From: a virus
Length of the DNA stretch: 40,283 nucleotides
Virus record (IMG/VR): IMGVR_UViG_3300018876_000033
Coordinates: 1 to 40,283 of that record
Reading direction: 5' to 3' (one strand)
The notes below the pieces were generated by a model. That model was not told the DNA's origin and made no database searches. It worked only from the letters and a program-made list of their open reading frames with translations. Positions within the stretch are counted from its first letter, which is position 1, and each line of letters begins with the position of its first letter. Both the position numbers and the translations under genes were made by a program. This document shows, one piece after another, positions 39,090 to 40,181 of the stretch.

Positions 39090-39112
39090 TTCAATGTTTG
39101 TTTTAAAAATGT

Positions 39113-39134
39113 AGCCCCCACTTTTGTGAGGGCT
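39113..39134 (-). terminator. Hairpin after the single-strand-binding gene, partial terminator
   Basis: AGCCCTCAC pairs with GTGGGGGCT (nine positions, one mismatch) around an AAAA loop on the leftward transcript, followed by ACATTTTTAAAAC. The T-run is short, so it probably attenuates transcription between the single-strand-binding gene and the DnaA-like gene. Confidence 0.55.
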
Positions 39135-39147
39135 AATTTTAGTTAAT

Positions 39148-39804
39148 CTAAATATTTAACTCAAAGTTCTCAGCCTCTATGACCTCTTCCTTACGGAAGT
39201 ACTCATCCAAGTAAACCTTAAGTTCTAAAGCAGTTTCGTCTGCCATACTTGACTCCTTAGCAGTTAGGTTCTTACCTAAGGTAAATTCTGGTGTAGAATA
39301 CTTGATACTACCCTTCTTCTGTTCCTTAGCTGTGTTAACCTCAATCCATTGGTTATCCAATAACGATTGATTGTCTCCAAAGAAGTCAGACCACTCTCTA
39401 ACTACTGCACCCTTAAATGAAAGGTTAGCAATCGTTCCGTCCTCTAACATCACGTACACAGATCGGTGGTACTTACCTCCAGCGTTAGTAATATCCTGCT
39501 TAATGTCCTTGTAAAGACCTGTAGCAATTTCACCTGCCTTAAAGGCTCTAACCGTCATAGGTTCACTACCAATGTAGTATACCTCGTTAGACCAAATTCC
39601 ACTCTGACTTGCATCGTTCCATCCCTTCACGGTGTGGTAGTGCTGTAAGAAAACAAACTTTAAAGGTAACTCTACCTTCACTTTATCCCCAGCCTCCTTG
39701 TCGTAAAACTCGAAAGATTTGTCATTTGACTTCCAATCTAAGTACTTCTTAGTTGGGTTGTTTGAGCTGTTGCTCTTCTCTGATGTGTGGCTAATTCTTG
39801 CCAT
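39148..39804 (-). CDS. Probable single-stranded DNA-binding protein
   Basis: The 218-residue protein begins MARISHTSEKSN and has a beta-rich core: SFEFYDKEAGDKVKVELPLK, FVFLQHYHTVKGW, SGIWSNEVYYIG, GGKYHRSVYVMLEDGTIANL, and an acidic C-terminal tail (RKEEVIEAENFELNI). This is the plan of phage single-strand binding proteins seen in Bacteroidota phages, with a body able to form an OB-type barrel and an acidic tail for partner proteins. It precedes the DnaA-like and primase-helicase genes and has a pseudoknot-like leader in front and an attenuating hairpin behind, fitting a highly expressed, separately controlled gene. The call is from resemblance and context; no strict motif exists for this family. 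Confidence 0.5.
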   Translation of the reverse strand: MARISHTSEKSNSSNNPTKKYLDWKSNDKSFEFYDKEAGDKVKVELPLKFVFLQHYHTVKGWNDASQSGIWSNEVYYIGSEPMTVRAFKAGEIATGLYKDIKQDITNAGGKYHRSVYVMLEDGTIANLSFKGAVVREWSDFFGDNQSLLDNQWIEVNTAKEQKKGSIKYSTPEFTLGKNLTAKESSMADETALELKVYLDEYFRKEEVIEAENFELNI

Positions 39805-39824: not shown

Positions 39825-39853
39825 ACGGTCATCTTGCCCTGACCGCTTGGGCT
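39825..39853 (-). promoter_or_regulatory. Predicted H-type pseudoknot in the leader of the SSB-like gene
   Basis: On the leftward transcript the order is GCCC (39852-39849), AA, GCGGTCA (39846-39840), GGGC (39839-39836), AAGA, TGACCGT (39831-39825). The first and third blocks pair (four G-C pairs) and the second and fourth pair (seven, one G-U), interleaved as in an H-type pseudoknot. Loops of two and four bases suit the groove spans. It ends 20 bases before the ATG at 39804 and begins a few bases after the stop of the 79-residue gene. A near copy lies at 40115-40143. Confidence 0.6.
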
Positions 39854-39858
39854 ATATT

Positions 39859-40098
39859 TTAATCGTTATATCTTAAGACAGGATCTAGGTAATAAGTCCA
39901 TATGTTTTCACTTAAGTGATACGACCTTCGATAAATACAATACGTCAAATCGTCTACATGTATGTAGTCACCTTTTTCTAGTTGATAATCGCTCTCCATT
40001 TCACATTCACACCACCAATCCCCATTACCTTCATCTTGATCCCATTTTACAAACGATATCTCTGGCTTTTGTTTCACAATAAATTGAATTGTTTTCAT
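39859..40098 (-). CDS. Small hypothetical protein with pseudoknot leader (79 aa)
   Basis: The 79-residue protein starts MKTIQFIVKQKPEISFVKWD and is rich in aromatic and acidic residues (EGNGDWWCECEMESDYQLEK, YCIYRRSYHLSENIWTYY). Alternating strands suggest a small beta-barrel or SH3-like fold. A turn at EKGDYIHVDDLTYCI resembles loops of small beta proteins. It carries the same leader as the single-strand-binding gene that follows it, separated by 54 bases, and its own promoter is at 40149-40181. Shared control suggests that both products are needed together or bind the same regulator. The family is unknown. Confidence 0.6.
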   Translation of the reverse strand: MKTIQFIVKQKPEISFVKWDQDEGNGDWWCECEMESDYQLEKGDYIHVDDLTYCIYRRSYHLSENIWTYYLDPVLRYND

Positions 40099-40114
40099 AA
40101 TAAATATTTAAATT

Positions 40115-40143
40115 ACGATCATCTTGCCCTGACCGCTTGGGCT
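40115..40143 (-). promoter_or_regulatory. Predicted H-type pseudoknot in the leader of the 79-residue gene
   Basis: This is the second copy of the leader at 39825-39853. The only change within the paired blocks is C to T in the last block (TGATCGT), which turns a G-C pair into G-U and keeps the stem. It ends 16 bases before the ATG at 40098. It starts within a few bases of the predicted transcript start, so it would lie at the very 5' end of the mRNA. Confidence 0.6.
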
Positions 40144-40148
40144 GTTTA

Positions 40149-40181
40149 CAAATATATTGCTTTATTTTAAATAAAATCAAT
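40149..40181 (-). promoter_or_regulatory. Bacteroidota-type promoter, leftward
   Basis: On the minus strand TATATTTG (40156-40149) fits TAnnTTTG, with ATTG (40181-40178) 21 bases upstream as a -33 match. The predicted transcript would begin near 40143-40147 with AACAGCCC, directly at the pseudoknot. It would drive the 79-residue gene, the single-strand-binding gene and probably the replication genes beyond. Confidence 0.6.

Follow-up and report, generated by a model that had tools for sequence, protein, structure and literature searches.

A pseudoknot conserved by covariation precedes the gene for a probable single-strand DNA-binding protein in Bacteroidota phages and may be its translational operator

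The complete virus record IMGVR_UViG_3300018876_000033 of IMG/VR, analysed over its full 40,283 nucleotides (nt) and referred to here as the window, carries on its minus strand two neighbouring genes for proteins of 79 and 218 amino acids (aa), each preceded by a 28-nt leader element that folds as an H-type pseudoknot (Table 1). The 218-aa product is a probable single-strand DNA-binding protein (SSB), and its gene stands in a replication cluster with genes for a DnaA-C-like protein, a primase/helicase and a helicase. The gene 5' of the 79-aa gene is presumably exonuclease-like, a name given from its appearance only. Both leaders present the blocks GCCC, AA, GCGGTCA, GGGC, AAGA and TGA(C/T)CGT, and in both the interleaved pairing proposed for them in a preliminary description of this DNA is borne out, including its observation that the C/T difference within the paired blocks turns a G-C pair into a G-U pair and preserves pairing. 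The places given there (39825-39853 and 40115-40143) stand, and each extent is one position too long, as 39853 and 40143 are a single unpaired A 5' of the core. A pattern search of the window that allowed up to three mismatches returned these two leaders as its sole matches, with 0 expected from shuffles. The pseudoknots end 20 nt (218-aa gene) and 16 nt (79-aa gene) 5' of the ATG.

The same structure precedes most homologues of the 218-aa gene. These homologues were taken from viral contigs and from bacterial and archaeal genome contigs; eight of the nine on genome contigs fall in Bacteroidota bins, several of them Flavobacteriia. The 88 distinct leaders that resulted include the window's two, those of two mycobacteriophages and one from an archaeal-bin contig. 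A pseudoknot is found 5' of the start codon in 80 of the 88, of which 78 were recovered by script with at most one mismatch allowed and two (L038 and L073) were read by eye after correction of the start codon. A strict descriptor, in which the pseudoknot pattern is tied to the start codon, matched 72 of 88 leaders, compared with 9 of 17,600 dinucleotide shuffles and 2 of 534 leaders of other open reading frames (ORFs) in the same loci; the stems of these last two are unconvincing. The architecture persists in very different letters, for example GCCC AA GCGCTTC GGGC AAGA GAAGCGT, GTTGG AA GCGTTAA CCAAC TTTAATT TTAACGC and GATGC AA GGCTTGG GCATC ACAATT CCAAGTC, and a search of viral contigs for the exact DNA pattern found one relative only. 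In the homologues the pairing thus survives the loss of the sequence, the reverse of the pattern that the preliminary description had named as contrary to its proposal. That description is confirmed and was understated, as the structure extends well beyond two copies.

Covariation was assessed in an alignment of 52 distinct pseudoknots from which loop 2 was omitted to keep the alignment anchored. Standard pairs make up 99.5%, compared with 55% after shuffling and 30-43% when slid by 1-3 columns. Changes on both sides of a pair number 246 cells (76 in shuffles), the covariation score is 1.15 (0.28 in shuffles), both sides have changed in 10 of the 11 pairs, and on the SSB protein tree the minimum number of changes per pair ranges from 6 to 26. 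Since the structure guided this alignment, it leans towards pairing; the shuffle test and the comparison with other genes are less biased, because shuffled and other leaders had equal freedom to match. In each of 54 cases a crude energy estimate ranks the pseudoknot above the best nested alternative, a result of little weight because its penalty terms are rough. By covariation the pseudoknot is real, and a shape that is kept while nearly all of its letters change points to a self-control switch. Recent duplication alone, which the preliminary description had offered as a sufficient cause of the conservation, does not account for the element itself; it probably gave rise to the copy that precedes the 79-aa gene.

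The pairing also bears on the nature of the molecule. Apart from three mismatches, the non-Watson-Crick cells on the sense strand comprise 77 G-U and 0 C-A, a count partly biased by the search rule; G-U without C-A on this strand therefore indicates an RNA that is read in the sense direction. The element could instead be a single-stranded DNA structure that serves as a replication or recombination site, as has been suggested for the STAXI motif (which we take to be RF01728). Its place in the replication region would suit such a role, as would the presence of STAXI pseudoknots near ssb genes (PMC2864571). The G-U bias and the fixed orientation and distance from the start codon both oppose it, and we regard it as highly improbable.

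Throughout the family, stem 1 has 4-6 base pairs (bp), loop 1 has 2 nt, stem 2 has 7 bp, there is no junction, and loop 2 has 3-8 nt, with stem 1 and loop 2 combined mainly as 4/4-5, 5/6 and 6/5. In a stem of this length, a loop of one or two bases suffices to span the deep groove. Loop 1 is mostly AA, and its first base is A in most leaders. Several riboswitches are H-type pseudoknots, and an element that responds to a small molecule or to a host protein, the former having been raised in the preliminary description, might take this form. Such a reading is improbable, since loop 2 has no conserved core: its length and sequence vary, and beyond the mostly-AA loop 1 the unpaired positions are unconserved. 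In addition, no Rfam riboswitch matches, and the element is essentially confined to one gene family. Between pseudoknot and ATG lies a spacer of 16-22 nt with an A+T content of 92%, and UAAA is present in 72 of 78 leaders. Over the 20 nt 5' of the ATG, A+T content is 87% and UAAA occurs in 93%, compared with 79% and 64% for other ORFs at the same loci; this modest enrichment alone is weak evidence, because Bacteroidota leaders are AT-rich in general. The ribosomes of Bacteroidota rely little on Shine-Dalgarno pairing.

The element may also mark the 5' end of the message. A TAnnTTTG box occurs no more than 45 nt 5' of the leader in 14 of 64 leaders (about 4% expected), and in the window the candidate promoter TATATTTG is placed such that the transcript may begin at the first pseudoknot. 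In several genomes the knot is predicted to lie close to the 5' end of the mRNA or directly at it, its 3' edge keeps a nearly fixed distance to the start codon, and an SSB is needed in large amounts; this would also suit a 5' stabiliser or translation enhancer, one that bars ribonucleases from the 5' end or holds the AU-rich start region open for the ribosome with no binding of SSB. An element of that kind would be expected before other highly expressed phage genes, and among the leaders of other ORFs only the two with unconvincing stems match; we consider it unlikely.

The assignment of the 218-aa product as probably an SSB draws on its tail, its predicted fold and its place among replication genes, of which the first two support the reading given in the preliminary description. 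The family corresponds to a nameless PHROG entry, phrog_6706; Pfam returned no match for it, and no credible hit emerged when PDB sequences were searched with the profile of the family. An acidic tail with a terminal Phe characterises the C-terminal tip of SSBs, and 71 of 74 complete homologues carry a strongly acidic tail with Phe among the last two residues (DDLDF, DDLPF, DEIPF). An AF2 model (pLDDT 86.5) has an OB-like strand order, and its closest solved folds are the phiC31 recombination directionality factor (RDF; Z 7.3) and the core domains of RB69 gp32 (Z 5.5) and T4 gp32 (Z 5.3), along with the OB folds of BRCA2 and RPA. The gp32-core matches cover 119-134 residues and come from one model only. 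As a separate matter, the phiC31 RDF, gp3, is the nearest solved fold to both models that were built (among them m126bac99af04), with Z 7.3 in each, which suggests that this factor may derive from a phage OB protein that binds single-stranded DNA.

The closest counterpart is the operator of T4 gene 32. In T4, gp32 is a repressor of the mRNA that encodes it: it binds a pseudoknot of ~28 nt and then spreads over a stretch of more than 40 nt with UUAAA/UAAA sequences that contains the ribosome site (PMC535899, PMC3014915), and some T4-like phages lack the gene 32 pseudoknot (PMC535899). In phage T2 (NC_054931) the leader reads TGACC A GCTATGA GGTCA TACATCG TCATAGC, a 5/1/7/0/7 arrangement, and is followed by a 34-nt AU-rich spacer to gene 32. 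The likeness to gene 32 that had been drawn for the window holds in detail: the leaders share with the T4/T2 operator the apparent function of the gene, H-type topology, a zero junction, a 7-bp stem 2 that starts with G, a stem 1 of ~5 bp, an overall length of ~28-32 nt, and an AU-rich, UAAA-containing spacer to the start codon. They differ in a loop 1 of 2 nt rather than 1 nt, in their Bacteroidota hosts, in far wider sequence variation of the knot and in its duplication before a second gene; moreover, the proteins have no detectable sequence relation and none is seen between the RNAs.

Two further systems bear comparison. In the STAXI motif two or three pseudoknots follow one another in tandem, UUCG loops are frequent, and the neighbouring genes are varied (PMC2864571); the motif resembles the present leader in lying near ssb and other DNA-handling genes, whereas the leader here is single, in the sense orientation and tied by a fixed distance to a single gene family. 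In E. coli rpsO, which we set beside the leader by description only, the translational operator contains a pseudoknot that is bound by the product of that mRNA, ribosomal protein S15 (PMC3014915), again an autogenous repressor acting on a pseudoknot, with a ribosomal protein in place of an SSB. Rfam searches at gathering and at permissive thresholds gave no relevant match in the window, in 19 homologous loci or to the T2 gene 32 leader. In the literature examined, whose coverage was partial, the textbook case of an SSB that controls itself through a pseudoknot in its mRNA is described for T4-like phages only, and STAXI is the sole case of a pseudoknot at an SSB gene outside them. The leaders represent a new RNA family that most probably works like a known operator.

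We propose that the leader acts as in T4, mainly because the two agree in topology, in the length of stem 2, in the apparent function of the gene and in the type of spacer. As the best explanation of these observations, the leader is likely to be an autogenous translational operator of the phage SSB. The mRNA 5' end would fold into a compact H-type pseudoknot that ends 16-22 nt 5' of the start codon. As long as single-stranded phage DNA abounds, SSB would be occupied on it and its mRNA translated; once SSB exceeds the free single-stranded DNA, one molecule would dock on the pseudoknot or on its single-strand junction, and further molecules would then line the unstructured AU-rich spacer, cover the start codon and block initiation. 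In this phage and in one relative, the 79-aa gene with its second leader copy would come under the same control. That this geometry recurs in a second system, one whose sequences show no detectable relation to the first, suggests that it is the shape of the knot that matters.

Several observations weigh against an SSB operator of the T4 type. The spacer reaches only about half of the 34 nt found in T2, and the window's own 218-aa protein ends in NFELNI rather than in Phe. A second model, built for the other family branch, again matches the phiC31 RDF, BRCA2 and RPA, with gp32 not listed; since Z values such as those obtained can arise from common arrangements, the fold supports an OB protein that binds single-stranded DNA and only suggests gp32. 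Comparison of profiles by hhalign gave a probability of 0.5% against T2 gp32, and thus no sequence link. Finally, the element is not universal, as 8 of 88 leaders lack it: four in which the gene abuts the upstream ORF, L059 with a disrupted stem 2, the two mycobacteriophages and one Nitrosotalea contig. A broader proposal, that the leaders form an undescribed and widespread RNA family of Bacteroidota phages, built to the gene 32 design either independently or through a very old common SSB operon and later copied to the 79-aa gene, so that the same SSB would govern both genes as a regulon responsive to free single-stranded DNA, is tentative and in our estimation possible rather than probable.

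The second copy admits another account. It may be a by-product of the insertion of the 79-aa gene through recombination at the leader, with no regulatory role, a possibility that we place just short of an even chance and that is compatible with an operator function of the copy before the SSB gene. In relatives such as L001/L042 the same upstream gene is followed directly by one leader and the SSB gene, with no 79-aa gene between them. Homologues of the 79-aa protein (P0002) were found on one contig only, and the gene was not found in four related phages, in a search that had no positive control. That other contig (L039/L041) has the two-leader arrangement of the window. Within a genome the two copies differ by 1 or 2 of 28 nt, compared with 5-6 between genomes, a likeness that gene conversion or leader recombination would produce and that shared control by one protein also fits. 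Against a mere by-product, the extra copy still pairs in both genomes, and in L039/L041 both leaders share an altered stem 2 (GCGGTTC/GAACCGT), as control by one protein would give.

Table 1. Positions in the window of the pseudoknots, their parts and the adjoining features
Feature	Position	Strand	Remarks
Pseudoknot, SSB-gene copy	39825..39852	-	Stem 1 39849-39852/39836-39839 (GCCC/GGGC)
SSB-gene pseudoknot, loop 1 and stem 2	Loop 1 39847-39848 (AA); stem 2 39840-39846/39825-39831 (GCGGTCA/TGACCGT)	-	
SSB-gene pseudoknot, loop 2	39832-39835 (AAGA)	-	
AU-rich 20-nt spacer with UAAA, pseudoknot to SSB start codon	39805..39824	-	Proposed spreading region and ribosome site; putative role
218-aa probable single-strand DNA-binding protein (phrog_6706)	39148..39804	-	Proposed repressor of its own mRNA
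Second pseudoknot copy	40115..40142	-	Stem 1 40139-40142/40126-40129; loop 1 40137-40138
Second pseudoknot copy, stem 2 and loop 2	Stem 2 40130-40136/40115-40121; loop 2 40122-40125	-	
AU-rich 16-nt spacer 5' of 79-aa gene	40099..40114	-	
79-aa accessory gene with its own leader copy	39859..40098	-	Lies 3' of the exonuclease-like gene and 5' of the SSB gene
TATATTTG, candidate Bacteroidota -7 box (TAnnTTTG)	40149..40156	-	6 nt 5' of first pseudoknot; putative promoter
TTG, possible -33 element	40178-40180	-	

Some homologous loci have features of their own. The SSB-like homologues of Mycobacterium phages Baka and Gaia (L129 and L130; ~31-33% identity) adjoin a polymerase/primase gene, are annotated "hypothetical protein" and have no pseudoknot 5' of them. 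The Nitrosotalea bin contig (L128) encodes a family member of 36% identity; it is binned with an archaeon and may reflect a binning error or an archaeal virus. At three loci (L075, L089 and L091) the upstream ORF seems to end within the pseudoknot, so that coding sequence and structure would overlap; overlap of this kind is reported for segG and the T4 operator. Directly 5' of the pseudoknot at L044 (positions 2330-2510, on the contig of L007) lies a segment that resembles the 3' half of a tRNA, with a T-arm and acceptor-like sequence; ARAGORN called no tRNA there. In the window itself, the minus strand directly 3' of the SSB gene (~39110-39135) contains a hairpin, GCCCTCACAAAAGTGGGGGC, followed by TACATTTTT, which looks like an intrinsic terminator or a 3' stabiliser.
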